DNA of 34,602 nt from Pirellulaceae bacterium (lineage in GTDB: Bacteria; Planctomycetota; Planctomycetia; Pirellulales; Pirellulaceae), in assembly GCA_026989685.1 (NCBI GenBank), contig JALSIV010000433.1, positions 1 to 34,602 of the forward strand, in the 5' to 3' direction. The notes below the pieces were generated by a model. The model saw only the letters and a list, made by a program, of their open reading frames with translations, made no database searches and was not told where the DNA came from. Shown piece after piece: positions 5,796-20,295 of the stretch. A program made the translations under genes and the position numbers. Positions within the stretch are counted from its first letter, which is position 1. Every line of letters begins with the position of its first letter.

Positions 5796-6872
5796 TTACG
5801 AACCGTCGGGCCGGGGCGAGCCGGGGATGAAGGACGAATCCGGGCTGAGGTCGAGTGCGAATTTGGCCAGCAGTTCGGCGGCCGCGTCCAGATCATCCAG
5901 CGAAACCATCTCCACGGCGCTGTGCATGTAGCGGTTGGGAATGGCCAGCAACCCCGTGGCTACGCCTCCTCGCGAGATCTGAATACTGTTGCTGTCGTTG
6001 GGGCAAGCGCGACCGATCGCCGCCAGTTGGTAAGGTATGCGGTTTTCGTCGGCCAAGGCGATCAGGCGCTCCACAACGCCTGGGTTGAGATTGGGGCCGC
6101 GAAAGATGACCGGCCCACCACCCAGCTTGATGTCACCTCGCTGCCGCTGGTCGATCGTCGGGCAATCGGTGGCGTGGGTGACGTCGACGGCGACACCGAC
6201 CTGTGGAGCCACACCGTACGTGCTGGTGATGGCACCGCGCAGTCCAACTTCCTCCTGGACGGTTGACACGGCAAACAGGCTGGCCTTCAAATGAGCCGGA
6301 TCGGCTCGGCGGAACGCTTCCAACACGACCCACAATCCCGACTTGTCGTCCATCCCCGGTGCGTTGGCCAGGTGATTGTCGAGCCAGCGCACGCCCAGCT
6401 CCAACGTGACCGGATCCCCCACCCGCACCTTCGCCAGCGCCTGCTCCTTGTCGGACGCTCCGATGTCCAACCACAATTCCTCGAGCTTCACGACTTGCCG
6501 GCGTTCCGAGTCGGTCAGCAAGTGAATGGGTTTGCGGGCGATCACGGCGGGAACCGCCCCCTGTTGTCCCCACACCGTCATCCGCTGTCCGATCAGTTGT
6601 TGAGGATCCCACCCGCCGATCGTCTGTGCGTAGAGATATCCTTTGTCGTCGATGTGGGAAATCACCATTCCGATCTGATCGCTGTGAGCGGCCAGCATCA
6701 GCCGCGGCGTATGGTCGGGATTGCGACCGGCGATCACGTTCCCGTGAACATCCGTATCGAGTGTGTCGGCCAACGGCTCAAGAAAAGACCTCACGATGTC
6801 CTGTACCGGCACTTCGTAGCCGGAAGGGGAGGGAGCCATCAGCAGATCTTGAAGCAACTGTTGGTTCGGCAT
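5796..6872 (-). CDS. M42 family metallopeptidase (glutamyl aminopeptidase / FrvX type)
   Basis: Cytosolic di-metal aminopeptidase of the tetrahedral M42 family. ATG 6872 (MPNQQLLQDLLMAPSPSGYE) is chosen over the upstream in-frame start at 6995, because family members begin just before the LxxLxxxPSPSGxE motif and the resulting 358 aa is the usual length. Metal and catalytic residues are visible: His63 in AAHSDQIG, Asp175 in APGMDDKSG, Glu207 and Glu208 in STVQEEVGLRG, Asp230 in VAVDVTH, and the late His in IPNRYMHSAVEM. There is no signal peptide. It is divergent from hom, with two palindromic repeats in the 413-nt region between them. It probably completes breakdown of peptides taken up from outside (inference). 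Confidence 0.93.
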   Translation of the reverse strand: MPNQQLLQDLLMAPSPSGYEVPVQDIVRSFLEPLADTLDTDVHGNVIAGRNPDHTPRLMLAAHSDQIGMVISHIDDKGYLYAQTIGGWDPQQLIGQRMTVWGQQGAVPAVIARKPIHLLTDSERRQVVKLEELWLDIGASDKEQALAKVRVGDPVTLELGVRWLDNHLANAPGMDDKSGLWVVLEAFRRADPAHLKASLFAVSTVQEEVGLRGAITSTYGVAPQVGVAVDVTHATDCPTIDQRQRGDIKLGGGPVIFRGPNLNPGVVERLIALADENRIPYQLAAIGRACPNDSNSIQISRGGVATGLLAIPNRYMHSAVEMVSLDDLDAAAELLAKFALDLSPDSSFIPGSPRPDGS

Positions 6873-7090
6873 GACTCGATTGCGTGAAAGAAGGAAGGTC
6901 GGGCATGCGCCGCAGCCCTCGCGCGGGGACACGGCAAGAAGATGAAAATATCCGGACTTGGCGGAGGGTGCAGTTTGACGTTTGCCCCGAACCATGTGAA
7001 GGGGGCCCTTGTTCGCCCCGGTGTGGCTGCGTCACACTGGTTGGCTGGACACAGCGGGGAGGCGATGCCGACCGGCTGGCGGAAACCAAC

Positions 7091-7167
7091 AGGCTGTAAC
7101 AGGACTCCGTGTCGCAAACAACCTGCCCGCGTTCGGGGGGCCGTTCGGCAGGTTGAGTTGCAGGCAC
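7091..7167 (+). repeat. 78-bp palindromic interspersed repeat, copy B (77 bp)
   Basis: Left end AGGCTGTAACAGGACTCC and right end GAGTTGCAGGCAC match the family but are more diverged than copy A, which follows in direct orientation after 4 nt. Both copies lie in the 413-nt divergent intergenic region between the M42 peptidase and hom. I see no other clear feature in 6873-7090. Confidence 0.75.
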
Positions 7168-7171
7168 GTAA

Positions 7172-7249
7172 GAGGCTGTCACAAAACTCCATGCCGCAAG
7201 CAACATGCCCGAGGTCGGGCAGCGGTTCGGCGGGTCTTGTTACAGGCAC
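7172..7249 (+). repeat. 78-bp palindromic interspersed repeat, copy A (best preserved)
   Basis: Imperfect terminal inverted repeats: the left end GAGGCTGTCACAAAACTC corresponds to the reverse complement of the right end, GTGCCTGTAACAAGACCC. In the middle TGCCCGA and TCGGGCA (7206-7221) form a perfect 7-bp hairpin. It ends 36 nt before the hom start codon, so it would be in the hom leader if transcription begins upstream. Confidence 0.85.
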
Positions 7250-7285
7250 GACAGTACTTCCAGCGCAACAACCGGTTGAGACTGC

Positions 7286-8587
7286 ATGGAAAAAACGCGA
7301 GTTGCCATTGTGGGGATGGGGACGGTGGGGACGGGAGTCGCCCGCCTGTTGCTCGACCAGGGAGACCGAACCGCGCGGCACGCCGGTCGGACGCTCTGGC
7401 TGGAGAAGATCGTGGTGCGCGATCCGAGCAAACCGCGAGACGTCGACCTGCCGGCGGGGCTGCTGACCGACAATCTGGACGAGGTGTTGCAGCATTCGGA
7501 GATCGAAGTGGTCGCTCAGTTGATCGGCGGCCTCGAACCGGCTCGCACCATCATGCTGAAACTGCTCGAAAGCGGCAAGAACGTGGTCACGGCCAACAAG
7601 GCGCTGCTTGCCGAGCACGGCGCCGAGTTGTTCGATCGCGCTCGGGAATTGGGACGCTCGATCGCCTTCGAAGGAGCGGTAGCGGGTGGGATCCCCATCG
7701 TCACCAACATCGGCCAGTGCCTCTCAGCCAATCAGATCCTCTCCGTCGTCGGCATTCTCAACGGCACCAGCAACTTTATCGTGACGGCGATGGCCGAACA
7801 GGGATTGTCGGCCGAGGAAGCGATTGCACAAGCGCAGGCCAACGGCTATGCCGAGGCCGATCCGACGATGGACATCGACGGTACCGATGCGGCCCAGAAA
7901 CTGGCCATCTTGGCCCACCTCGCCTTCGGAGCTCGCGTCCACTGGTCGGAGATCCCTCGAACCGGCATCGACCAGCTCGAGCCGATCGATCTGCGTTTCG
8001 CCGACGAACTGGGATACCGCGTCAAACTCCTGGGAGTAGCTCAGTTGGTCGATGACCGAGTCGAGATGCATGTGGCTCCGACACTCATCCGCCAGGGACG
8101 ACCGCTGGCCGAGGTGCGCGGCGCCTACAACGCGATTACGGTGGTAGGAGACGCCGTCGGACGCGTCTTCTACCATGGTCTGGGAGCCGGCCAGATGCCG
8201 ACCGCGTCGGCGGTGGTCGCCGACCTGATCGACACGTCGGTGGGACGGACTCAGATCACCTTCGGCAACTTGGAACTGTGGTCCGATCGCACGCCGACCA
8301 CCGATGTTCGTGCCCAGCGCGATCTGCCGGGCCGGTATTACCTCCGTTGGCAGGTCGACGATCGGCCTGGCGTGATGGCCAAGATCGCCGGGATTCTCGG
8401 GGAGCACTCGGTCTCCATCGCCTCGGTGATTCAGCACGAAGCCGAATCGGACGACGCCTCGGACGTGCCGTTGGTAATCATGACCCACCAGACGACCGAA
8501 GGGGCCATCGGAGACGCGTTGGCGGCCATTCACCGGTTGCCGTTCGTTCGGTCGCGAGCGGTCAAGATGCGAGTATTGGAACGATAG
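7286..8587 (+). CDS. hom: Homoserine dehydrogenase
   Basis: NAD(P)H-dependent reduction of aspartate semialdehyde to homoserine, the branch point to threonine and methionine. 433 aa, the normal length for the ACT-containing bacterial form. The N-terminal Rossmann motif is VAIVGMGTVGTG (residues 6-17). GKNVVTANKALLAEHG and the substrate-site region FEGAVAGGIPIVTNIGQ...ILNGTSNFI are diagnostic of the family. A C-terminal ACT domain starts near YYLRWQVDDRPGVMAKIAGIL and probably senses threonine. The start has no strong Shine-Dalgarno sequence. The ApgM-family gene follows after 12 nt and lysC after that, forming an aspartate-pathway unit. Repeat copies A and B lie directly upstream. Confidence 0.96.
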   Translation: MEKTRVAIVGMGTVGTGVARLLLDQGDRTARHAGRTLWLEKIVVRDPSKPRDVDLPAGLLTDNLDEVLQHSEIEVVAQLIGGLEPARTIMLKLLESGKNVVTANKALLAEHGAELFDRARELGRSIAFEGAVAGGIPIVTNIGQCLSANQILSVVGILNGTSNFIVTAMAEQGLSAEEAIAQAQANGYAEADPTMDIDGTDAAQKLAILAHLAFGARVHWSEIPRTGIDQLEPIDLRFADELGYRVKLLGVAQLVDDRVEMHVAPTLIRQGRPLAEVRGAYNAITVVGDAVGRVFYHGLGAGQMPTASAVVADLIDTSVGRTQITFGNLELWSDRTPTTDVRAQRDLPGRYYLRWQVDDRPGVMAKIAGILGEHSVSIASVIQHEAESDDASDVPLVIMTHQTTEGAIGDALAAIHRLPFVRSRAVKMRVLER

Positions 8588-8599
8588 CCGCCAGGAAAA

Positions 8600-9817
8600 A
8601 TGGACATGAAATACGTCGTGATCATCCCGGATGGATGCGCCGACCAGCCGCAAGAGTCGCTGGGTGGACAGACGCCTCTGCAAGCGGCGACCATTCCCCA
8701 TTGCGATGCGATTGCTTCCAGCGGTCAGGTCGGACTGGCCAACCACATCCCCCGTCATCTGCCGGCCGGATCGGCGGTGGCCAACATGAGCCTGCTCGGG
8801 TACGACCCGAATCGGCATTTCACCGGACGGGCACCGATCGAGGCGGCCGCCGGCGGTGTCGAGCTGGGCGCGCAGGATTGGGCCGTGCGCTGCAATCTGG
8901 TGACCATCGAGGATCAGGTGATGCGAGATTTCACGGCGGGGCACATCTCGACAGACGAGGCCCGTTCCCTCCTCGAAACAGCTCAAGCGTCTTTGCCGCC
9001 CGGCAGCCCGCTCGAGTTCCACACGGGCGTCAGCTACCGCAATCTGCTGCTGTATCGAGGCGCCCCGCAGCGGCCCGCCCCTTTCTCCACCGACACTCGC
9101 ACTTGTCCCCCTCACGATCTGATCGACCAGTCCATCGCCGATTCGTACCCCCGCGGCCCCGGCAGCGATTTGCTCAATGAAATCATGTCGCAGAGTTGGC
9201 AGTGGTTTGCCGAGCACCCTGTCAACCAGCAGCGCCGATCGCGCGGCGAGCTGCCGGCCACCAATGTGTGGTTGTGGGGACTCGGCCGGCGTCCGCAATT
9301 AGCGCCTTTTGCGGATCGATTCGGTATTCGAGGAGCCATGATCACGGCGGTCGACCTGTTGCGGGGCCTGGCAAGATTGATCGGCTGGCAGTGCATCGAC
9401 GTTCCCGGAGCGACCGGCTATCTCGACACCGACTACGCCGCCAAGGGAGCCGCCGCGGTGGAAGCACTCCAAGAGTACGATATTATCTGCGTTCATATCG
9501 AGGCCACGGATGAAGCGTCTCACGAAGGCCGCGTTGACGCGAAGGTTCAAGCACTCGAGTCGATCGATGCGGCCATCGTCGGCCCCGTCCTCCAGGCTCT
9601 CCAGCAGACCGACGCGTGGCGAATCCTGGTCTGTCCCGATCACGCCACACCGCTGGCCACCAAGATGCACAGCCACGGTGCCGTTCCCTTTGCGATGGCC
9701 GGCAGCCGGATCGCGAGCGACGGGGCGAGCACCTACGATGAACAGTCGGCCCAATCGACCGGCCTGCGCCATGACCGCGGCTGGGAGTTGATGGAGGCCT
9801 TCATCGACCACGCGTAG
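8600..9817 (+). CDS. ApgM-family phosphoglycerate mutase-like protein; candidate homoserine kinase
   Basis: Member of the archaeal-type cofactor-independent phosphoglycerate mutase family within the alkaline phosphatase superfamily (405 aa). Metal-site motifs are visible: Asp11 in VVIIPDGCADQP, DEASHEG in the middle, and CPDHATPLATKMHSHG near the C-terminus. The phospho-transfer Ser58 sits in AGSAVANMSLLGYDP; many relatives read GSD here, so the Asp is replaced by Ala. AGGA stands just upstream of ATG 8600; ATG 8606 (MKYVVIIPDG) is also possible. It is 12 nt after hom and before lysC, with no thrB in the window. Family members placed this way are thought to serve as homoserine kinases, so that is my preferred role; true phosphoglycerate mutase activity is the alternative. 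Confidence 0.85.
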   Translation: MDMKYVVIIPDGCADQPQESLGGQTPLQAATIPHCDAIASSGQVGLANHIPRHLPAGSAVANMSLLGYDPNRHFTGRAPIEAAAGGVELGAQDWAVRCNLVTIEDQVMRDFTAGHISTDEARSLLETAQASLPPGSPLEFHTGVSYRNLLLYRGAPQRPAPFSTDTRTCPPHDLIDQSIADSYPRGPGSDLLNEIMSQSWQWFAEHPVNQQRRSRGELPATNVWLWGLGRRPQLAPFADRFGIRGAMITAVDLLRGLARLIGWQCIDVPGATGYLDTDYAAKGAAAVEALQEYDIICVHIEATDEASHEGRVDAKVQALESIDAAIVGPVLQALQQTDAWRILVCPDHATPLATKMHSHGAVPFAMAGSRIASDGASTYDEQSAQSTGLRHDRGWELMEAFIDHA

Positions 9818-9916
9818 GTCGCCGGCTCTCGCCTCAATCGGTCGGCTACCCCATCATGGACCTTTCCCGCCGTCCCCTGCCTTCGCTAACCTGCTCTCCC
9901 AAGCTTTCGAATTGCC

Positions 9917-11719
9917 ATGTCGTTGATTGTGCAAAAGTTCGGTGGCACCAGCGTCGCCGATTGCGAGAAGATCCAAGCGGCCGCCCGCAAAGCCGTACGG
10001 GCTCACCAACAGGGACACCAAGTGGTGGTCGTTGTCAGCGCGATGGGCAAGAACACGGATCAGCTCATCGATTTGGCACGAGAAGTCAACGCCCGCCCAC
10101 CGGCTCGTGAAATGGACATGCTGCTGTCAACCGGCGAACAAGTCAGCGTAGCCTTGATGGCGATGGCCGTGGATGCGATGGGCTATCAGGCGGTCAGTCT
10201 GACCGGGGGGCAGATCGGTATCCGCACCGACAGCTCTCACACCAAGGCCCGCATTCGTTCGATCTCGACCGAGCGGCTCCGCCAGGCGCTCGATGCCGGT
10301 CACATTGTGATCGCGGCGGGATTTCAGGGAATTGACGAGGACTGGAACATCACCACGCTGGGACGCGGCGGCAGCGACACCACGGCGGTGGCGTTGGCAG
10401 CCGTGCTGGGTGCCGACTTGTGCGAGATTTACACCGACGTCGACGGCGTCTATACGACCGACCCGCGGATCCTCCCCGAAGCTCGGCAGATGGTGCGGAT
10501 CAGTTATGACGAAATGTTGGAGCTGGCCAGTCTGGGGGCCGGCGTCATGCACAACCGTTCGATCGAGTTCGCCAAGAAGTTCCGCGTTCCCATTCACGTG
10601 CGCAGCAGTCTCAGTGACGCGATGGGGACGCTGATCGTGGACGAACCGGAAAGCCGCCGATTACCGGTTTGCGGGGCGGCCCTCACGTCCGACGAGGCTC
10701 GCATCACCCTGCTCGGCGTCCCCGACGTGCCGGGAACCAGCTATGAGGTTTTTTCCCGTATTGCCGAGCAAAAGATTTCCGTTGACATGTTGGTGCAGAA
10801 CATCGGTGCCTCGGGTAAGGCCGACATCTCGTTTACCGTGCCGCTGCAAGAACTGGAGGCCGCTCTGGCCACGGTGGAAGAAGCGGCCCGGAAAGTCGGT
10901 GCCGACCAGATCATCCACGATGACCAGGTCGCCAAAGTCTCGGTGGTCGGCTTGGAAATGGCACGCCAGACCGGTGTGGCCGATCGCATGTTTCAGGCCC
11001 TGGCAGACGCTCAGATCAACATCCAGATGATCACCACCAGCGAAATCAAGATCTCCGCTCTGGTCGATCGCGAATCGGCTCGCGACGCCCTGCGAGCCGT
11101 CCACCGCGTGTTCCGACTCGAGCAGATTCCGGACGACATCAAACGCCCCGATGCTCCCACACTCGCCGAGGCCATGGCGGGATCGGCGCCCAGTGAAGCT
11201 GACGAAGTGGTGTCACGACTTCAAGACGTGGTCGACATGGAGCAGCTCACCATCGACGATGTCGTACTCGACGACACGCAGGCTCGAGTCACCATTCAGG
11301 GCGTTCCCGACCGGCCCGGCGTGGCCGCTCGTGTGTTTCGCAGCGTCGCCCAGGCCGGAGTGTTTGTCGATATGATCGTCCAGAGTCACCACGGCGAGCG
11401 AGACCGGACCGGTCTCAGCTTCACCGTGCCTCGCGATAGTCTGCAAGCGAGCTTGAAGGCCACCGAAGCGTTGGGGAAAGACCTGAGTTTCCGAGGCGTC
11501 AGCCATTCGCCGGAGGTCGCCAAACTATCGGTTTCCGGGATCGGACTCCGCAGCCATACCAGCGTGGGAGCCCGTATGTTCGAGGCGCTGGCCGAAGCCG
11601 GAATCAATGTCGAAATGACCAACACCTCGGAAGTGCGCGTCAATATGGTGGTCGATGGGGCGCGAGGCAAGGACGGGCTGGCGGCACTGGAACAGGCGTT
11701 CGCCGGTTTTCGCCGGTAA
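9917..11719 (+). CDS. lysC: Aspartate kinase with four ACT domains
   Basis: Phosphorylates aspartate, the first step toward lysine, threonine and methionine. The kinase domain spans residues 1-245: KFGGTSVA (7-14), the SAMGKNTDQL loop, STGEQVS (71-77), TLGRGGSDTTAVAL (147-160) and YTDVDGVYTTDPR (172-184). An ACT pair follows (about 260-405), with the typical VPGTSYEVFSRIAEQ and GVADRMFQALADAQINIQMI. A linker of about 40 residues leads to a second ACT pair (about 445-600), with RPGVAARVFRSVAQAG and SVGARMFEALAEAGINVEM. At 600 aa it is about 190 residues longer than two-ACT enzymes. A duplicated ACT pair is known from cyanobacterial aspartokinases, so this is a recognised architecture. Feedback control by lysine and/or threonine is expected but cannot be read from the sequence. 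Confidence 0.96.
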   Translation: MSLIVQKFGGTSVADCEKIQAAARKAVRAHQQGHQVVVVVSAMGKNTDQLIDLAREVNARPPAREMDMLLSTGEQVSVALMAMAVDAMGYQAVSLTGGQIGIRTDSSHTKARIRSISTERLRQALDAGHIVIAAGFQGIDEDWNITTLGRGGSDTTAVALAAVLGADLCEIYTDVDGVYTTDPRILPEARQMVRISYDEMLELASLGAGVMHNRSIEFAKKFRVPIHVRSSLSDAMGTLIVDEPESRRLPVCGAALTSDEARITLLGVPDVPGTSYEVFSRIAEQKISVDMLVQNIGASGKADISFTVPLQELEAALATVEEAARKVGADQIIHDDQVAKVSVVGLEMARQTGVADRMFQALADAQINIQMITTSEIKISALVDRESARDALRAVHRVFRLEQIPDDIKRPDAPTLAEAMAGSAPSEADEVVSRLQDVVDMEQLTIDDVVLDDTQARVTIQGVPDRPGVAARVFRSVAQAGVFVDMIVQSHHGERDRTGLSFTVPRDSLQASLKATEALGKDLSFRGVSHSPEVAKLSVSGIGLRSHTSVGARMFEALAEAGINVEMTNTSEVRVNMVVDGARGKDGLAALEQAFAGFRR

Positions 11720-11741
11720 CCATCGTCCGTCCGACATCCGC

Positions 11742-12143
11742 TCACTTGGCCGCTTCGTCCAACACCGACTCGTCGACATAGATCGGCAAGGGCGGATCGA
11801 GTGTCACTGCGATGGCAATCGCGTCGGACGGACGCGAGTCGACGTCGACGGTCTCTCCGTCGACACGCAGCCTCAGGCGAGCAAAATAAGTCTGGTCCTT
11901 CAGCTCGGTGATCAGCACACTGTCCAGCTCCGCCCCCAACGCCTCGGCTACATTCACCACCAAGTCGTGTGTCTGGGGACGCGGTGGCTTGTGTCGCCGC
12001 GCTCGCCGGTCGATGCTGGTCGCCTCGAAAATGCCGATCACAATCGGGAACTGGCGGTCGCCATCGACCTCCTTGAGATAGATGATCTGCTGGTCGTTGA
12101 TCTCGTTGATCACGATTCGAGAAAGCTGCATCAACACCGGCAT
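11742..12143 (-). CDS. Bifunctional nuclease (DUF151) family protein
   Basis: 133-aa protein of the DUF151 family, small proteins described as having DNase/RNase activity in some organisms. The family core is clear: IIYLKEVDGDRQFPIVIGIFEA, then RPQTHDLVVNVAEALGAEL, then DGETVDVDSRPSDAIAIAV. ATG 12143 gives an N-terminus MPVLMQLSRIVI; ATG 12131 is also possible. It is convergent with lysC (22-nt gap) and divergent from the glycosyltransferase gene. It appears to be a single-gene unit whose role is not revealed by its neighbours. Confidence 0.9.
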   Translation of the reverse strand: MPVLMQLSRIVINEINDQQIIYLKEVDGDRQFPIVIGIFEATSIDRRARRHKPPRPQTHDLVVNVAEALGAELDSVLITELKDQTYFARLRLRVDGETVDVDSRPSDAIAIAVTLDPPLPIYVDESVLDEAAK

Positions 12144-12336
12144 CGATTGTCTCCAGCGAGTAGGAAAAACCAGGCTCTCCTGCTATTCTAGCTCCGGGCA
12201 TGACGCCTGTGGAGTCGTGCCGAATCGATGAAAGGACCGAGAGGACGCGGTGCGTCTCCGGGCTCGGCGCGGATGTCGCCATCGTCGCCGCCCACGCCCG
12301 GCGGCATAGCCCCATCACCCATCACCCACCACCCTC

Positions 12337-13905
12337 ATGTCTGACTGGAACCTGGTAATCCTGCACTACCACCTCAACCCCGGTGGAGTCACTCGAGTCA
12401 TCGATGGCCACTTGCAGGCACTCACCACACTCGCACCGAGCGACCAGCCGGTCCGTGTGGCGGTCTGCTTCGACGGTCAGGCCGATCAGTGGCGATGGGA
12501 GCCCGCGCACGAGTCGTGCCGGTTCGAACTCGAGCAACTCGTCGTTCCGTCCCTGCGCTACGACACGGACGGCTGCTGCGAGCCCGCATCGCTGTCGGAG
12601 GCGTTGCGATCGGCGCTGGCGGACGCCGAGTTGCTCCCCGAGGAAACGCTGATCCACGTTCACAATCACAACCTGGGAAAGAATGCGGCATTGCCCAGCG
12701 CCCTGCGGCGACTGGCACAGGCCGGCTATCGCCTGTTGCTGCAGATACATGACTTCGCCGAAGATATTCGGCCCACCAATTACCGGCACATGGCGGATTG
12801 CTACGGTGGCACCGGCGCCGTTCCTCAGCAGATCTATTTTCACGCGGAACATGTCCATTACGCAGTGCTCAACCAGCGCGATGCTCGAGTCCTGCAAGCG
12901 GCCGGATTGCCGCACGACCATCTGCATTCTCTGCCGAATCCAGTGAATGGTCCGGCCCGCCACGTCGACCCCGACGAGGCTCGAGCCGCCGTCGAGCGAC
13001 AGTGGCCGCAGGCTGCCGGCCGTCAGTTCCTGGTCTACCCCGTCCGTGGCATCCGCCGCAAGAACGTCGGCGAATTGCTGTTGTGGGCGGCTGCCTGCCG
13101 CGAATCCGCCTTTTTTTCCATGACATTGCCGCCGCGCAATCCTATCGAACAGCCGATTTACGAACGCTGGAAATCGTTGGCTGAACAGCTCGAATTGCCG
13201 GTCGACCTGGCGGCCGCCACCCATCCTTCGGTCACCTTTGAAGAGCTGATTTCGGCAGCCGACTGGGAAATCACCACGAGCGTGGCCGAAGGATTCGGAT
13301 TGGTTTTTCTGGAAAGTTGGTTGGCCGGGAAACCGCTCGTCGGCCGTGACCTTCCCGATATCACACGCGACTTCAAGGAAGCCGGCGTCGTTTTTTCATA
13401 TATGCAGGCCGAACTGGCCATTCCCTGGGATTGGCTCGACCGAAAGGAAGTCGCCCACCATTTGTTCGCCCACTACCGCGACGTACTGGATGCCTACGCC
13501 GTGGAGCGATCGCTCTCGTCCATCAACCGGGAAATCGACCTGCTCTTGGATGGACCATTCCTCGACTGGGCCTACCTCGATGTTGAACTCCAGCACCGCC
13601 TCCTTTCCGAGCTGCCGAAGATCTCGCGCGGGTGGGACGCCTTCTGGCACTTCAATCCTCTGATCAGCCGATTCCGAAACGGCCGTATCATCGATTCGGA
13701 ACGACTGGCGGAACTGGTCGAATCGAACGCGACGACGACTCGGACGCAATTTGGACTACACGCCTGCGGCCGGCGGCTCTACGATGTCTATGCGCGGCTG
13801 CTGGCATCGACGGCGACTCCGGCAGTGGAACCCCTTCCCCACGTCGGCGCCGTGCTGGAGTTTTTCCTCCGACTGGACCGCATTCACCCCATTCGCCTGG
13901 CATGA
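12337..13905 (+). CDS. GT4-type glycosyltransferase (solute locus)
   Basis: Retaining glycosyltransferase with a GT-B fold (522 aa). The N-terminal domain opens with the acceptor-side loop HYHLNPGGVTRVI. The C-terminal domain contains QFLVYPVRGIRRKN and the E-x7-E motif Glu318...Glu326 in AEGFGLVFLE, which binds the nucleotide sugar in GT4 enzymes. About 150 further residues follow this motif, more than in a minimal GT4 protein. The stop codon overlaps the next gene's start (ATGA at 13902-13905), so translation is probably coupled to the HAD hydrolase. Through its neighbours (GpgS-like enzyme, GH13_18 phosphorylase) I infer transfer of a sugar to a glycerate-containing acceptor; donor and acceptor are not determined. 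Confidence 0.85.
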   Translation: MSDWNLVILHYHLNPGGVTRVIDGHLQALTTLAPSDQPVRVAVCFDGQADQWRWEPAHESCRFELEQLVVPSLRYDTDGCCEPASLSEALRSALADAELLPEETLIHVHNHNLGKNAALPSALRRLAQAGYRLLLQIHDFAEDIRPTNYRHMADCYGGTGAVPQQIYFHAEHVHYAVLNQRDARVLQAAGLPHDHLHSLPNPVNGPARHVDPDEARAAVERQWPQAAGRQFLVYPVRGIRRKNVGELLLWAAACRESAFFSMTLPPRNPIEQPIYERWKSLAEQLELPVDLAAATHPSVTFEELISAADWEITTSVAEGFGLVFLESWLAGKPLVGRDLPDITRDFKEAGVVFSYMQAELAIPWDWLDRKEVAHHLFAHYRDVLDAYAVERSLSSINREIDLLLDGPFLDWAYLDVELQHRLLSELPKISRGWDAFWHFNPLISRFRNGRIIDSERLAELVESNATTTRTQFGLHACGRRLYDVYARLLASTATPAVEPLPHVGAVLEFFLRLDRIHPIRLA

Positions 13906-14801
13906 TGTCCGATTGGATCGAAGCAACCATTCGCCGTCACGCGGTTCCGTTGGAGCCTCGAGCCACCGGCGTACCGCCGCGCCGGTCGAAGCCTCTGGCG
14001 CTGAAAGGCATCTTGTTCGACATCTACGGCACGCTGCTGGTCAGCGCAGTGGGCGACATCGGTTCGTCCGAGATGCCCGAAGCCGAAGCGGCCGAAGGGG
14101 CACTGCGATCCCTCGACTGCGAGGCTCGGGGAAAGGGAGAACTGGTGGCAACCACCCTGCGGCGAACGATCGAGCGGCACCACGCCGAGGCAAAACGACG
14201 AGGCATCGATTATCCGGAGGTCGCCATCGACCGGATGTGGTGCGAGGCATTGGACCGGCTGGTCGATCAGGGCCAGCTTCCCGCAGCGGCCCGACAACTG
14301 GATGCCCGGCGCGTCTCGCTGGAATACGAGATGCGAGTCAACCCCGTGTGGCCGATGCCCGGGCTGTCCGAAATGCTCGGTCGGCTCAGACAACTCGGCC
14401 TGGTCCTGGGCATCATCAGCAACGCTCAATGGTTTACACGGCCGATCTTTGAAACGCTCACCGGCAAGAACCTTGCCTACTGGGGAATCACCGACGACCT
14501 GCAGATCTACTCCTACCGCCTCGGCCAGGCCAAACCGTCGGCCCATTTGTTCCAAACAGCAGAAACCGCTCTGTCCCGACGGGACGTCTCGCCTTCCCAG
14601 GTGCTCTACCTCGGAAACGACATGCGGAACGATTGCTGGGGCGCCGGGCGTACCGGCTTCCAAACAGCGCTGTTCGCCGGGGATGAACGTAGCCTAAGAT
14701 TGAGAGAGGATGATCCCCTGGTGCAGGGATACGAACCCGACTGGGTGATCACCGATTTGCGCGAGTTGGCCGAGGCTGTGACCGCGACGGCTTTGAGGTG
14801 A
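13902..14801 (+). CDS. HAD-superfamily hydrolase, candidate sugar-phosphoglycerate phosphatase
   Basis: 300-aa HAD hydrolase. Motif I is GILFDIYGTLL with nucleophile Asp40; the second acidic position is Tyr42 (DIYGT, not DxDGT), a pattern also seen in haloacid dehalogenases. Motif II is LGIISNAQW, the motif III Lys lies in YRLGQAKPS, and motif IV is VLYLGNDMRND. A helical cap lies between motifs I and II (residues about 60-165). The start is ATG 13902, overlapping the upstream stop; ATG 13905 is equally possible. Between two glycosyltransferase genes, the natural role is dephosphorylation of a glycosyl-3-phosphoglycerate. The Tyr in motif I weakens this, and substrate and reaction remain open. 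Confidence 0.82.
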   Translation: MMSDWIEATIRRHAVPLEPRATGVPPRRSKPLALKGILFDIYGTLLVSAVGDIGSSEMPEAEAAEGALRSLDCEARGKGELVATTLRRTIERHHAEAKRRGIDYPEVAIDRMWCEALDRLVDQGQLPAAARQLDARRVSLEYEMRVNPVWPMPGLSEMLGRLRQLGLVLGIISNAQWFTRPIFETLTGKNLAYWGITDDLQIYSYRLGQAKPSAHLFQTAETALSRRDVSPSQVLYLGNDMRNDCWGAGRTGFQTALFAGDERSLRLREDDPLVQGYEPDWVITDLRELAEAVTATALR

Positions 14802-14846
14802 CATGAGGGACAACAGGACAGCTTCCACCAAGAGGTAGACCGGCGG

Positions 14847-16112
14847 ATGTCGCAACGGATCGGATTCATTGGCACTCGTTTCGCCGGCACCGACGGGGTG
14901 TCGCTCGAAAGCGCGAAGTGGGCCGAAGTGCTGTGGCACCACCAGCATGTCAGCTACTGGTACGGTGGCAAACTCGACCGCAGCCCCGATATCAGCATGG
15001 AGGTTCCTCACGCCTATTTCGGGCATCCCGACAACGTCTGGATCAACGAACGAGTCTTCGGAAAACGCAAACGCAGCCGCGACGTCACTCAGCGGATCTT
15101 TGCCATCACCGAGTATCTCAAGGATACGCTCTATCAGTTCGTCGAGCGTTTCAGCATCGACATCCTGATTGTGGAAAACGCCTTGTGCATTCCCATGAAT
15201 ATCCCGCTCGGCGTCGCACTCACTCACTTCATCGCCGAAACCGGCTTCAACACGATCGCCCACCACCACGACTTCTACTGGGAGCGAGATCGTTTTTCGG
15301 TCAACGCCGTCGGAGACATCCTCTCGATGGCCTTCCCGCCCAGCCTCCCCACGATCCAGCACGTCACCATCAACTCGTTCGCCAACCAGGAACTTTCCCA
15401 CCGCCGCGGCGAGTCGTCTCTGCTGGTCCCCAATGTCCTCAACTTTGAAGCCCCACCCCCTCAGCCGGACGACTACTCCCGCGCCTTCCGGCACGATATC
15501 GGCCTCGAACCGGATGACATCATCTTCCTCCAACCGACTCGCGTGGTTCCCCGCAAGGGAATCGAACATTCGATCGCTCTCGTCGCCCAACTAAAAAACC
15601 CCAAGTGCAAACTGGTCGTCTCGCACGAGGCGGGGGACGAGGGACACGACTACATGATGGCCCTGATGGACATGGCCGAACAAGAAAACGTCGACCTCCG
15701 CTTCATCAGTACCAAAGTGGGCGACATCCGCACCGTGCGCGAAGGAGGCGAACGAACCTACACGCTGGCCGACGCCTACCAACAGGCCGATTTCATCACC
15801 TACCCCAGCATCTACGAAGGATTCGGCAACGCACTGCTCGAGGCCTTCTACTACCGCAAACCCCTGCTGGTCAACCGCTACTCGATCTACGTGGCTGACA
15901 TCGAACCGCTGGGAGCCAAGGTGATCACCATGAACGGCTACATCACCCGCGATATCGTCAAGCAAGTCGAGCGGACGATCGAGGACCCCGAATTCCGCGA
16001 AGAAATGGTCGAACACAATTACGAACTCGGACGCCGTTTCTACAGCTATTCGGTCCTCCGCCGCAAACTCCGGTCCCTCATCACCAACTTCACCGGCGCC
16101 GACGACCTTTGA
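14847..16112 (+). CDS. GT4-type glycosyltransferase, second copy in the solute locus
   Basis: 421-aa retaining GT-B glycosyltransferase. The N-terminus [21 protein letters not shown] resembles sugar-nucleotide enzymes that use a GTDGV acceptor loop. [14 protein letters not shown] is a conserved His/Asp-rich segment. [19 protein letters not shown] opens the donor-binding domain, and the E-x7-E motif is Glu324...Glu332 ([10 protein letters not shown]). It differs clearly from the glycosyltransferase at 12337, so the two are not a recent duplication. It starts 45 nt after the HAD gene. In the planctomycete mannosylglucosylglycerate pathway a mannosyltransferase acts after GpgS; this gene or the one at 12337 is the candidate (inference). 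Confidence 0.86.
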
Positions 16113-16157
16113 TGGCAAGCTGCGGGACAAACGATCAGTTCATCGGCATGACGTTGT

Positions 16158-16205
16158 CAGCCTGGAACAAGATCAGCCTGGAACAAGATGTTGTGCTAGC
16201 ACAAC
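16158..16205. repeat. 16-bp tandem duplication followed by a 16-bp perfect palindrome
   Basis: CAGCCTGGAACAAGAT occurs twice without a gap at 16158-16173 and 16174-16189. Directly after it lies GTTGTGCTAGCACAAC (16190-16205), a perfect palindrome. Both are in the 289-nt gap between the glycosyltransferase and the four-helix-bundle gene. The palindrome could be an operator or a small hairpin. I see nothing else notable in that gap. Confidence 0.8.
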
Positions 16206-16401
16206 GGGATGAAGCACGAAATGTTGTGGGGCCGGCACGTGGCGGTATTGGAAATGGCAGAATACGAGATAGACCGTGGGCACACCGACGGAAATCGGAT
16301 CGCTTGCCGTGACCGCAATTCGCACCGTGGGAGGTTCCAAACCGAACCGGAGTGCGGGCGGCTCCGGACGGTTATTCGCGGATTGGCAGCAGGGTGGTGT
16401 G

Positions 16402-17100
16402 ATGATGAGCGACAATCGAGATCGTTCCAATACTTCAGGGCGCCGCATGTTGGGCGACCGGGCGTGGGATGAACGCGTCCTGCCGCCGCGCGGCGACTAC
16501 CGGAAACTGCTCTCCTTTCAAAAGGCGGAAGTGATCTATGACATCACGTTCCGTTTTGCACAAAAGCACCTGCGGCGCGGCGACCGCACGGTGGACCAGA
16601 TGGTCCAGGCTGCCCGTTCGGGAAAGAAGAACATCCTGGAAGGAAGCAAAGCAGGTACGACGTCGAAGGAGATGGAGATCAAACTGACCAACGTGGCTCG
16701 CGCGAGCCTGGAAGAATTGCTGGACGACTATCTCGATTACCTCAGGGCCCGCGACCTGCGAATCTGGGAACCGGATTCCCGCGAGGCACTTTATGTCCGT
16801 GAGCTGGGATGCAGAACGCCCCAATCTTACGAATTGTACCGCGAGTTCGTCGAGACACGGTCTGCCGAAGTCGTCGCCAATATCGCGATCTGCCTGGTAA
16901 ATCAGGCCAACTATCTGATCGACCGGCAACTTCGCCGGTTGGAAGAGGATTTCCTCAAGGAAGGCGGTTTGCGCGAACGAATGACGCGGCTGCGACGGAA
17001 AAGGAGGGAGGGCAATTGCGGGGGTGGGAAGTACGGGAATGGGAGCGATGGGACGGATGGGAACGATGGGACCGAAGATTCCACCAACAGAGCGATATAG
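16402..17100 (+). CDS. Four-helix-bundle (S23/IVP-like) protein with C-terminal suffix region
   Basis: 232-aa protein related to the S23/intervening-sequence four-helix-bundle family. ATG 16402 follows AGGGTGG at a suitable distance; the longer in-frame start at 16276 lacks support. Residues about 30-130 hold the helical core: LLSFQKAEVIYDITFRFA, then RRGDRTVDQMVQAARS, GKKNILEGSKAGTTSKEM and ANVARASLEELLDDYLDYL-type helices. A further helical segment (about 130-195) corresponds to the suffix region found in longer family members. The last 30 residues are Gly/Asp/Asn-rich low complexity, encoded by a 9-bp DNA period. Function is unknown; relatives include IVS-encoded 23S proteins and retroelement accessory proteins, but no reverse transcriptase or rRNA is nearby. 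It looks like an insertion between solute genes. Confidence 0.82.
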   Translation: MMSDNRDRSNTSGRRMLGDRAWDERVLPPRGDYRKLLSFQKAEVIYDITFRFAQKHLRRGDRTVDQMVQAARSGKKNILEGSKAGTTSKEMEIKLTNVARASLEELLDDYLDYLRARDLRIWEPDSREALYVRELGCRTPQSYELYREFVETRSAEVVANIAICLVNQANYLIDRQLRRLEEDFLKEGGLRERMTRLRRKRREGNCGGGKYGNGSDGTDGNDGTEDSTNRAI

Positions 17101-17157
17101 GAGCGTTCACGCGATTGCCGTTGATCTCACCGGTCCCATGCCTCCCATCATTCCCAT
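17041..17157. repeat. 9-bp-period repeat and matching downstream inverted repeat
   Basis: Four units of the form GGGAnCGAT or GGGACnGAn run from 17041 to 17076 at the 3' end of the four-helix-bundle gene. After the stop codon, the complementary sense (GGTCCCAT at 17132, CCTCCCATCATTCCCAT at 17141-17157) forms an imperfect inverted repeat with them. About 17 nt pair with three mismatches around a loop of roughly 60 nt that contains the stop codon. It may be a terminator-like structure or a mobile-repeat remnant. Confidence 0.65.
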
Positions 17158-17299
17158 AGCTCTTCCCCAAAGTCGGCAGGCTCCCGTTTGCGCTGCCCCT
17201 TGCCAGTTTCCGGCTCCTCCCCGTACATTGGCGGACTGATGAATGGAGCGAGCCGGATTTGGATGCCACGACGCGATCTCAGGGGGAAATGGAGCCTTC

Positions 17300-19015
17300 A
17301 TGCTAAGCGGAGAATTGCGGGAGCGCTTGAGACACCATCTTGAGAGGATCTATCCGAGTCGAACCGAACTCGCGTTGGAGAAGGTCCTGAATGTCTGCCG
17401 GCCGATCTCCAGGTCGCCGGCGGACGCACTTTGGAGTGAACGCGACACGCTACTGATCACCTACGGCGACCAGATCCGCGGTCCCGGCGGCGCTCGGCCG
17501 CTCGAGTTGCTCGAGCGCTGGCTTCGCTCGGAAGGACTCGAGCAGGCGTTTTCATTGGTACATCTGCTTCCGTTTTTTCCCTATTCGTCGGATGACGGGT
17601 TTTCCGTGATCGACTATCGGCAGGTCGACCCGGCACTGGGGAACTGGGACGACGTGAGCCGCCTCGCGGCAACGTTCGACTTGATGTTCGATCTGGTGCT
17701 CAATCATGTATCGCAGCGAAGCGATTGGTTCCAAGGCTACCTCCGCGGCGATCCTCGTTTCGCGGATTGGTTCATCGAGGCCGATCCGGCAGATGATCTT
17801 TCGCGGGTGGTCAGACCGCGTAGTCTCCCCTTGCTGACTCGCGTCGAAACGACTCGCGGACCTCGCCACGTCTGGACCACTTTCAGTCCCGACCAGATCG
17901 ATCTGAACTACCGCACCCCCGATGTGCTGGCGGAGATGATCGACATCCTGCTGCTGTACGTGGAGAAAGGTGCCCGTATCATCCGGCTCGATGCAATCGC
18001 CTATCTATGGAAGGAACTGGGGACGAGCTGCATTCATCTGCCGCAAACGCACGAAATCGTCAAGTTGATGCGGACGGTACTGGATGCTTGTGCCGGTGGA
18101 ACACTGCTACTGACGGAGACGAACGTGCCTCATCAGGAGAACATCTCCTATTTCGGCAACGGCGATGAGGCTCACATGGTTTACCAGTTCAGCTTGCCGC
18201 CACTGCTACTGGACGGACTGCTCCACGGTGACGCCACATTTCTTCGCCGTTGGTTGGCGGATCTGGAACCGCCGGCTCCCGCCACCACGTTTTTGAACTT
18301 CACGGCATCTCATGACGGTATCGGCGTGCGGCCCTTGGAGGGCATTGTGCCCCCGGCGCGATTCGATGCACTGGTGACCGAAGTGCGCGGGCGCGGCGGG
18401 AGGGTCAGCACGCGGCGGCAGCCCGATGGTTCCGACTCGCCGTACGAACTCAATATCACCTACCTGGACGCCGTCCGAGATCGGGAGGCGAAGGGGTTTC
18501 GCCAGCAGCTGCGGCCGTTCTTGACTTCGCAAGCCGTGATGCTGGCGCTGCGGGGAATCCCGGCCGTCTATTTTCACAGCCTGGTGGGGACGCCCAACGA
18601 TCTCGAGGGCGTCCGGCAGTCGGGTCAACCCAGACGCATCAATCGACATAAGTACGACTGGGGTGAATTGGAGCGGGCTTTGGAATCGGACAACGCGGCT
18701 CAAGGTTGGCTGTTTCGCCAGTATCGCCACATGTTGCAGGTACGGCGCAGCCAGCCCGCATTCCATCCCGACGCCGGCCAGCGCGTCGTCGAGCTGGCCA
18801 GTCCGGCCGTGCTGGCCGTGGTCCGCGGCGAAGAGACGGGAAGCCCGGTTTGCCTGCTCGCCAATCTGGGGCGGCAGCCGGTGACAGTTTCGGCACACGA
18901 ATTGCCGCTGTTGACGTCTTGCACGATGGACTGCCTTTCCGGGCAGCCGGTGATCAACGAAGATGACTCGTTGACTCTGTCGGCACACCAGACCCTCTGG
19001 CTCACCGGTGGTTGA
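17300..19015 (+). CDS. GH13_18-type sugar phosphorylase (probable glucosylglycerate phosphorylase)
   Basis: Alpha-amylase-superfamily enzyme of the sucrose-phosphorylase subfamily (571 aa). ATG 17300 is chosen because GGAG lies 9 nt upstream; ATG 17243 would add 19 unsupported residues. The catalytic set is complete: nucleophile Asp231 in RLDAIAY, acid/base Glu273 in LLTETNVPHQ, and transition-state Asp339 in TASHDGIGVRPLEG. VHLLPFFPYSSDDGFSV, GTPNDLEGV and RRINRHKYDW are typical of this subfamily. It has no signal peptide, so it is intracellular. GH13_18 includes sucrose phosphorylase and glucosylglycerate phosphorylase. The GpgS-like gene begins 62 nt downstream, which favours reversible phosphorolysis of glucosylglycerate, that is solute recycling; sucrose phosphorylase is the alternative. 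Confidence 0.88.
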   Translation: MLSGELRERLRHHLERIYPSRTELALEKVLNVCRPISRSPADALWSERDTLLITYGDQIRGPGGARPLELLERWLRSEGLEQAFSLVHLLPFFPYSSDDGFSVIDYRQVDPALGNWDDVSRLAATFDLMFDLVLNHVSQRSDWFQGYLRGDPRFADWFIEADPADDLSRVVRPRSLPLLTRVETTRGPRHVWTTFSPDQIDLNYRTPDVLAEMIDILLLYVEKGARIIRLDAIAYLWKELGTSCIHLPQTHEIVKLMRTVLDACAGGTLLLTETNVPHQENISYFGNGDEAHMVYQFSLPPLLLDGLLHGDATFLRRWLADLEPPAPATTFLNFTASHDGIGVRPLEGIVPPARFDALVTEVRGRGGRVSTRRQPDGSDSPYELNITYLDAVRDREAKGFRQQLRPFLTSQAVMLALRGIPAVYFHSLVGTPNDLEGVRQSGQPRRINRHKYDWGELERALESDNAAQGWLFRQYRHMLQVRRSQPAFHPDAGQRVVELASPAVLAVVRGEETGSPVCLLANLGRQPVTVSAHELPLLTSCTMDCLSGQPVINEDDSLTLSAHQTLWLTGG

Positions 19016-19077
19016 CCGGGGCCGGGCAGCATTCGATGGCTCGAAGGCAGGAATTCAGTAGACGGGGAGAGCATTCC

Positions 19078-20295
19078 ATGTCCGACTTCTACCAGCACGG
19101 TCGAATCACCACGCTCCACGACTTGGGGACGGCCGACTTGGGGGAATTGGAGCGGGTGTTGGGTGAAGCCAGCTCGGAACACCCGCTGGGGCTGATCCTC
19201 CCGGTGACGGCTTCGGACATGCGAGCGGCTCCTTTTTCGCGAATCATCGAGCAGCTCGAGGGAGTGTCCTACATCGACACGATTCTCGTGGTGCTGGGGG
19301 TGGCACCCGAGGTCGAAGATTTTCGCGAAACGTGCCGGATCGTGGCACGACTGGGCGAGCGGGCTCGCGTGATGTGGACCGACGGCCCTCGGTTGCAGGC
19401 TCTGCAGGCCGAACTGGACCAGTGCGGTTTTCGGCTGGGAAGTCCGGGAAAAGGCCGCTCGGTATGGCTGGCGTTCGGCTACCTGCTGGGGGACCCGCGT
19501 CTGTCGGCCTTCGTACTGCACGACTGCGATATCGTGAACTACAACCGGCTCCTGCTGGCTCGGCTCTGCATGCCGATGGTCCACTCCAGCCTCGACTTCG
19601 AGTTCTGCAAGGCGTTCTACGCTCGAGTCACCGACCGGATGCACGGGAGAGTCGTGCGTCTGCTGGTGTCGCCACTCCTGGACGCGCTGATCTCCACGTT
19701 GGGCAGCGACCCGTTTCTCACCTACCTCAAGAGCTTCCGCTATCCGCTCTCGGGCGAATTCGCAGTGACCGCCAATCTGGCTCGCTCCAACCGCATCCCC
19801 AGCGACTGGGGGCTGGAAGTGGGAACGCTGGCCGAAGTCTTCCGTAACACGTCGATCAAGCGGGTTTGCCAGGTCGATCTGTGCCTGCCGTACGAGCACA
19901 AGCATCAGTCACTCTCGCTGGAAGACCGCAGCAAGGGGTTGATGAAGATGGCGACCGATATTTTGACCAGCATCTTCCGCACGTTGGCCAGTCGGGGGTT
20001 GGTGCTGGAAAACAGCCACTTCCGGACGCTGCGTTCGGCCTATTTGCGAGCGGCCCAGGATTCGATACGCAAGTACCACGCCGATGCCCTGCTGAACAAC
20101 CTGATCTATGACCGGCATTTGGAAGAGGAGGCCGTGGAGGGCTTTGCCGAACGGATCACGGCGGCCGGCGAGGTCTTTGCGGCCGATCCATTGGGCGGAG
20201 AGTCGATTCCCAATTGGGCTCGCGTGCTGGCCGCGCTTCCCGATTTCCCCAAGCGGTTGCGTCGCGCCGTCGCGGAGGAATTTCAGAGCCTGTAA
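19078..20295 (+). CDS. GpgS-like glycosyltransferase (glucosyl-3-phosphoglycerate synthase type)
   Basis: 405-aa GT-A-fold glycosyltransferase. ATG 19078 has GGGGAG 9 nt upstream; the 66-nt upstream in-frame extension has no support. The donor-site motif SPGKGRSVWLAFGYLL matches the PGKG loop of glucosyl-3-phosphoglycerate synthases. The metal-binding DxD is Asp149-Cys-Asp151 in LHDCDIVNYN. FRYPLSGEFAV and DWGLEVGTLAEV correspond to acceptor and metal-site regions of that family. It is expected to transfer glucose from a nucleotide sugar to 3-phosphoglycerate, the first step to glucosylglycerate or mannosylglucosylglycerate. The last codons and the TAA stop (20293-20295) lie inside repeat copy D, so the repeat sets the C-terminus. 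I am confident of the family and moderately confident of the acceptor. Confidence 0.87.
   Translation: MSDFYQHGRITTLHDLGTADLGELERVLGEASSEHPLGLILPVTASDMRAAPFSRIIEQLEGVSYIDTILVVLGVAPEVEDFRETCRIVARLGERARVMWTDGPRLQALQAELDQCGFRLGSPGKGRSVWLAFGYLLGDPRLSAFVLHDCDIVNYNRLLLARLCMPMVHSSLDFEFCKAFYARVTDRMHGRVVRLLVSPLLDALISTLGSDPFLTYLKSFRYPLSGEFAVTANLARSNRIPSDWGLEVGTLAEVFRNTSIKRVCQVDLCLPYEHKHQSLSLEDRSKGLMKMATDILTSIFRTLASRGLVLENSHFRTLRSAYLRAAQDSIRKYHADALLNNLIYDRHLEEEAVEGFAERITAAGEVFAADPLGGESIPNWARVLAALPDFPKRLRRAVAEEFQSL

Follow-up and report, generated by a model that had tools for sequence, protein, structure and literature searches.

What might five enzymes, encoded in one direction within 8 kb of a planctomycete genome, accomplish together? 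The 34,602-nt stretch of Pirellulaceae DNA analyzed here (the window) carries, at positions 12337-20295, a GT-A enzyme resembling glucosyl-3-phosphoglycerate synthase (GpgS), two GT4 glycosyltransferases, a HAD hydrolase and a GH13_18 phosphorylase, which an initial annotation had proposed to form a complete locus for making and recycling glucosylglycerate or mannosylglucosylglycerate (MGG). All five genes were recovered where that annotation had placed them, on the plus strand (Table 1). We read the locus as probably a planctomycete MGG cassette equipped for recycling, in which a pathway of the Rhodopirellula baltica type is joined by a phosphorylase and by an additional glycosyltransferase, GT4a; the observed gene identities, order, conservation and co-occurrence are the basis from which we infer the catalytic activities and the accumulated solute. 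GpgS would make glucosyl-3-phosphoglycerate by transferring glucose from a nucleoside diphosphate (NDP)-glucose to 3-phosphoglycerate, the MggA-type GT4 would add mannose from GDP-mannose, and the HAD enzyme would remove the phosphate to yield MGG, a negatively charged solute able to stand in for glutamate as K+ counter-ion at high salt and low nitrogen. When demand for the solute ends, phosphorolysis of glucosylglycerate by the GH13_18 enzyme would return glucose-1-phosphate and glycerate. In R. baltica, MGG rises about 25-fold under nitrogen limitation, and also with salt (PMC3694870).

The five-gene arrangement is far beyond chance, as its order recurs in other Pirellulales and the presence of its genes is strongly correlated over 170 genomes. 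Among the genomes (G numbers, the window's own being G000) and loci (L numbers) compared, the order GT4a-HAD-MggA-GH13-GpgS recurs in L016/L024, L017, L019, L023, L025, L180, L189 and L193. Rearranged versions are present in the verrucomicrobial loci L074 and L085, where GT4a and HAD overlap as well, and GT4a, HAD, MggA and GpgS are clustered in G082, in which no GH13 phosphorylase was found. Co-occurrence was assessed in 170 genomes of the family that are at least 90% complete, with HAD counted at E<=1e-20. An MggA-type gene is present in 56 of these, GT4a in 61, GpgS and GH13 in 75 each, HAD in 51 and a phosphatase of the MPGP type in 19. GpgS and GH13 occur together in 74 genomes, with one further genome each for either gene alone. 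MggA-type genomes have GpgS in 55 of 56 cases and GT4a in all 56, often unlinked; five lack HAD at the threshold, and weaker HAD copies were present in both of those that were opened (L175, L192). Because the genomes are not independent, with MggA confined to 17 of 55 genera, Fisher values overstate the association. Co-occurrence nevertheless holds where the genes are unlinked (G012, G026, G029, G130), and GpgS, GT4a and GH13 each stand apart from the other genes in some genome (the same four and G167) with all of them still kept.

The first step of the proposed pathway is represented by a GT-A enzyme in which both the PGKG loop and the DxD motif named in the initial annotation were located. 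It matches the curated GpgS model NF040724 over its full length at 357 bits (residues 3-403 of its 405 against positions 2-400 of the model's 402) and also matches solved GpgS chains in the PDB. In the tree it lies within the GpgS family rather than away from it, in a planctomycete clade with 100/100 support. Together, these results support a GpgS-type enzyme, which would act on NDP-glucose and 3-phosphoglycerate.

The second step is assigned to the GT4 enzyme at 14847-16112, whose product matches the MGG synthase model NF041101 over its full length at 243 bits; as a control, the model scores above its cut-off in T. maritima. The window protein shares this full-length family match with the MGG synthases of Petrotoga and Thermotoga but differs from them in a score far below the equivalog cut-off, and the match supports its identification as a putative MGG-family mannosyltransferase. 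Further guidance comes from R. baltica, in which GpgS, MggA and MggB have reportedly been described and MggS is said to be lacking. Genome G130, which we take to be R. baltica (SH1 chromosome), has single strong homologues of the window GpgS (63% identity), MggA-type GT4 (73%) and HAD (34%). Its HAD, MggA and GH13 genes are overlapping or adjacent at 6.64 Mb, while GpgS lies at 0.53 Mb and GT4a, in an intact frame of 534 amino acids (aa), at 2.89 Mb. Since R. baltica reportedly lacks MggS, the one strong NF041101 relative in G130 is likely MggA and the window enzyme its putative orthologue. The two systems come from the same bacterial family and share homologues of GpgS, the MggA-type GT4 and HAD, but the window unites all genes in one cassette with the phosphorylase inside and GT4a in front, whereas GpgS and GT4a lie elsewhere in G130.

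A different division of labor between the two GT4 enzymes was also considered, in which GT4a is the true mannosylglucosyl-3-phosphoglycerate synthase MggA, paired with HAD as MggB, and the enzyme at 14847-16112 acts MggS-like on glucosylglycerate, so that the locus would hold both of the MGG routes reportedly described from Petrotoga mobilis. The stop/start overlap of GT4a and HAD is found in both Planctomycetota and Verrucomicrobiota, and the pair stays joined when split from the other genes in G029; moreover, the model matched by the 14847-16112 protein is itself named for MGG synthase, and in a KSB1 locus (L029) GT4a adjoins GpgS without an MggS-type gene. However, the single strong NF041101 relative of G130 sits beside HAD with GT4a far off, although R. 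baltica reportedly lacks MggS, and GT4a has no NF041101 match even though MggA and MggS are reportedly homologous. We therefore consider this assignment unlikely and retain the 14847-16112 enzyme as the MggA-type mannosyltransferase. Additional MggA/MggS-type paralogues (44-49% identity) were seen at two other places in G000 (C186:12753-13982 and C4:11697-12926; L182, L183) and directly upstream of GpgS in three relatives (L184, 11899-13128; L022; L028). A search of plasmids for MggA relatives returned only an unannotated Vibrio replicon with uninformative neighbours.

For the dephosphorylation step, the initial annotation had pointed to a HAD hydrolase. The HAD assignment holds, the protein belonging to subfamily I with a predicted structure of mean predicted local distance difference test (pLDDT) 93.6, but an MggB-like phosphatase role is indicated less directly, as the protein falls outside the GpgP/MpgP family and carries Tyr for a catalytic Asp. 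Motif I reads DxYGT rather than DxDGT in nine of nine aligned relatives, and motif IV retains the Asp expected to bind Mg. A canonical GpgP was rejected on the absence of any MPGP-family match: the HAD protein (P0002) has no match to TIGR01486 (MPGP/GpgP, HAD-IIB), and no MPGP gene was found in G000. Genomic context, rather than the motif, makes it likely that this enzyme is a phosphatase.

Strict glucosylglycerate phosphorylases (GGaP) are distinguished by two diagnostics, (T/S)ETN at strand beta5 and a Glu in loop A (PMC7178133). The window GH13 enzyme (P0005) carries TETN at residue 273, as in Escherichia coli YcjM, and SPYELN at residue 381, with Glu where sucrose phosphorylases carry Gln; both signatures are also present in its relatives, in G130 and in YcjM. 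It groups in the tree with YcjM, separated from annotated sucrose phosphorylases at 100/100, and its blastp score is 454 bits to YcjM versus 191-203 bits to sucrose phosphorylases. A sucrose-specific enzyme was rejected on the two motifs and the tree position, and the expectation that this GH13_18 member is of the glucosylglycerate phosphorylase type is well supported, with its substrate preference and in vivo direction predicted. Neither of the outcomes that the initial annotation had named as refuting its reading, a GT-A enzyme clustering apart from GpgS or a strictly sucrose-specific GH13, is indicated by these comparisons. YcjM itself shares 41% identity over the full length, TETN, the loop-A Glu and the catalytic residues with the window enzyme, but its operon serves sugar uptake and has no synthesis genes. 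A psp-ycjM-type catabolic region with a YcjM-like GGaP was also seen beside qnrB6 on a conjugative plasmid, the Enterobacter hormaechei IncHI2A plasmid pFJMB80013_1 (L208). GH13_18 phosphorylases beside glucosylglycerate synthesis genes are already known (PMC7178133, PMC11009771, PMC10873239). The Marinobacter glucosylglycerol phosphorylase, which adjoins GgpPS, is likewise a GH13_18 enzyme encoded next to a synthase that makes a glucoside osmolyte (PMC10873239), although its acceptor is glycerol and its loop-A motif is a different one.

The pattern of phosphatases separates the window's cassette from a second, simpler one. Of the 20 genomes that have GpgS and GH13 without MggA, 19 also have the MPGP-type phosphatase, which occurs in none of the 56 genomes with MggA. 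Because this phosphatase and MggA never co-occur, the family holds what are predicted to be two mutually exclusive modules: one is a plain glucosylglycerate cycle, and the other, found in the window, adds mannose and has the DxYGT HAD. The plain module is also known as GpgP-GpgS-GGaP from Synechococcus PCC 7002 (A2021-A2023, PMC10873239) and was seen in Luminiphilus (L100). It resembles the window in that GpgS adjoins GGaP, bringing synthesis and phosphorolysis together, but its phosphatase is an MPGP-family HAD-IIB enzyme (as shown in L100), and it has neither a mannosyltransferase nor GT4a. In G003 (L020, 1225-4209), G108, G110 and G182, GpgS and GH13 share a single open frame, about 1000 aa long (994 aa for the fused protein of L020); these fusions belong to the plain glucosylglycerate module, and a gene for an MPGP-family phosphatase adjoins them. 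The plain-type GpgS proteins of L020 and L021 cluster in the tree with gammaproteobacterial GpgS, which suggests that the plain module may have reached these planctomycetes separately. By placing GH13 on a biosynthetic protein, the fusions also bear on whether the phosphorylase might run synthetically, making glucosylglycerate from glucose-1-phosphate and glycerate as a second entry route instead of recycling it. The GGaP reaction is reversible (PMC7178133, PMC11009771); however, phosphorylases of GH13_18 encoded next to a solute synthase are interpreted as catabolic, and in a cyanobacterium the solute fell when the glucosylglycerol analogue was expressed (PMC10873239). A synthetic role thus appears improbable, and recycling remains our preferred function for the window GH13.

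Several observations weigh against the MGG cassette reading. The GpgS score lies under the NF040724 equivalog cut-off of 700 bits, a threshold set for proteins closely related to those of the model itself, and the claim made here is accordingly one of membership in the wider GpgS family rather than of an equivalog. The mannosyltransferase similarly falls far under the NF041101 equivalog cut-off of 640 and is hence classed as a relative within the MggA/MggS family rather than as MggS itself, while the assignment of window genes to R. baltica MggA and MggB is based on the pathway reported for that species plus elimination. In motif I, HAD has Tyr where classical phosphatases carry their second Asp, and Mg-independent dehalogenases are among its nearest solved folds, with phosphatases also found as neighbours. 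GT4a is without an assigned function. Finally, GGaP acts on glucosylglycerate, and no enzyme of the locus is known to remove mannose. The proposal of a solute cycle returning glucose-1-phosphate and glycerate therefore stands in part: genes for synthesis and phosphorolysis do lie together in a conserved cassette, but the cycle would also require removal of the mannose, for which the locus has no obvious enzyme.

This gap directs attention to GT4a. Its match to the Pfam family Glycos_transf_1 (20-21 bits) is under the gathering score of 26.4, and the profile search gave no close family match. The structural model is confident (pLDDT 87.7) and adopts a GT4 fold, with a best Z of 21.6 and a root-mean-square deviation of 3.4 over 348 residues to HepE, a position at which many GT4 enzymes tie; because the fold search gives only such generic neighbours, no donor or acceptor can be read from it. 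The catalytic motifs are intact, with invariant R241, K242, E318 and E326 forming the EX7E and R/K donor-phosphate motif of the GT-B fold. Sucrose-phosphate synthase and TreT were rejected as identities for lack of a family match, the TreT-like protein of L029 scoring 425 bits. That KSB1 locus (6333-15257) encodes, in a row, the TreT-like trehalose synthase, GT4a, GpgS, a GT81-like enzyme, a glycerate kinase and a further GT4 without an MggA-type gene, and is a different sugar-glycerate cluster. GT4a homologues were also seen in L190 (9476-11017; G007), G144 and G145, none of which has a match for GpgS, MggA, HAD or GH13; these are the only full-length copies without the pathway.

From the presence of two GT4 enzymes the initial annotation had suggested a longer or branched product, which the two would make if they acted in succession. 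Both are retained together in 56 of 56 genomes, and the GT4a motifs are intact. A GT4a product as major solute is nonetheless unlikely, since none has been reported from R. baltica, for which G130 is taken, and G130 has both GT4 enzymes with GT4a in an intact frame. The main solutes reported for that species are only sucrose, glutamate, trehalose and MGG, the last being the sole sugar-glycerate solute among them (PMC3694870). The evidence does not support the suggested product, and we regard a longer or branched solute as rather doubtful. Alternatively, GT4a could run in the MGG-consuming direction and so supply GGaP with glucosylglycerate, through the kind of reverse transfer or phosphorolysis of which TreT or GT4 trehalose phosphorylase is capable. 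Such an activity would fill the missing demannosylation step, and GT4a is confined to mannosyltransferase genomes but for five (three with full-length genes, two with fragments), none of them among the plain glucosylglycerate genomes. The fold search, however, gave only generic GT4 neighbours, and G082 clusters GT4a with the synthesis genes in a genome where no GGaP was found, making this direction a quite improbable one. GT4a is most likely a second, obligatory glycosyltransferase of the system that acts on the same glycerate glycosides, either in a synthase/phosphatase pair with HAD or as the link between MGG and glucosylglycerate; by elimination it is a candidate for the MGG-to-glucosylglycerate step, a parallel route or a further derivative.

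Comparison of the cassette with the sister genome loci L185/L012 revealed a marked difference in the pace at which its genes change. Nonsynonymous divergence (dN) is 0.016 for MggA, 0.063 for GpgS, 0.16-0.30 for GH13, 0.29 for GT4a and 0.33 for HAD, while synonymous divergence (pS) is similar in all cassette genes at 0.59-0.70, a level near saturation that could hide a modest difference. The MggA-type protein is 97% identical to that of the sister genome, versus 60-64% for HAD and GT4a; recombination as the source of this disparity is not supported, as synonymous divergence is similar throughout. The MggA-type gene is thus under extreme constraint, and GT4a and HAD change together, about 20-fold faster. 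Tentatively, GT4a and the DxY-type HAD may constitute a second arm of MGG metabolism, as yet undescribed and evolving fast, that yields an unnoticed derivative or, through GT4a, demannosylates MGG for GGaP.

Table 1. Genes and sequence landmarks of the cassette, in window coordinates.
Feature	Position	Strand	Landmarks
GT4a, retaining GT4-fold glycosyltransferase, 522 aa	12337-13905	+	EX7E at 13288-13314; RRKN at 13051-13065
HAD subfamily I hydrolase, 298 aa, probable MggB-like MGG-pathway phosphatase	13905-14801	+	motif I FDIYGTL 14016-14036; motif IV GNDMRND 14610-14633
MggA/MggS-family GT4 mannosyltransferase, 421 aa	14847-16112	+	NF041101 match over 4-411
Four-helix-bundle (S23/IVP-type, TIGR04258/TIGR02436) open reading frame	about 16399-17100	+	TIGR04258 79 bits, cut-off 40
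GH13_18 phosphorylase, GGaP type	about 17300-19015	+	nucleophile RLDA 17984-17995; TETN 18113-18124; loop A SPYELN 18437-18454
GpgS, glucosyl-3-phosphoglycerate synthase, GT-A	19078-20295	+	PGKG 19444-19455; DxD (HDCDI) 19519-19533

Within the cassette, the HAD start codon shares one base with the stop codon of GT4a, and the ATG listed for GpgS is more likely its start than the TTG at 19012 implied by the mechanical open reading frame. The gap between the MggA-type gene and GH13 (16112-17300) spans 1187 bp in the window versus 316 bp of non-homologous sequence in sister genome G001, and for this reason the four-helix-bundle frame within it is probably a recent insertion that lies outside the pathway.

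MGG synthesis in planctomycetes is already known, and in the literature that could be read we found no description of the cassette of five genes, of GT4a as its obligatory member, of two mutually exclusive modules or of the GpgS-GGaP fusion. MGG is a rare solute that in 2013 was known only from Petrotoga and R. baltica (PMC3694870). In this planctomycete family, roughly one species in three has the predicted MGG pathway genes, with the phosphorylase in all but one. An extra glycosyltransferase, GT4a, which to our knowledge is not named in the published MGG pathway, always accompanies them, and a second GT4a-HAD arm, if true, would extend MGG metabolism past the published synthesis pathway. The genomes also show, within a single bacterial family, two predicted glucosylglycerate modules that are interchangeable yet exclude each other, and each of them has a different phosphatase.

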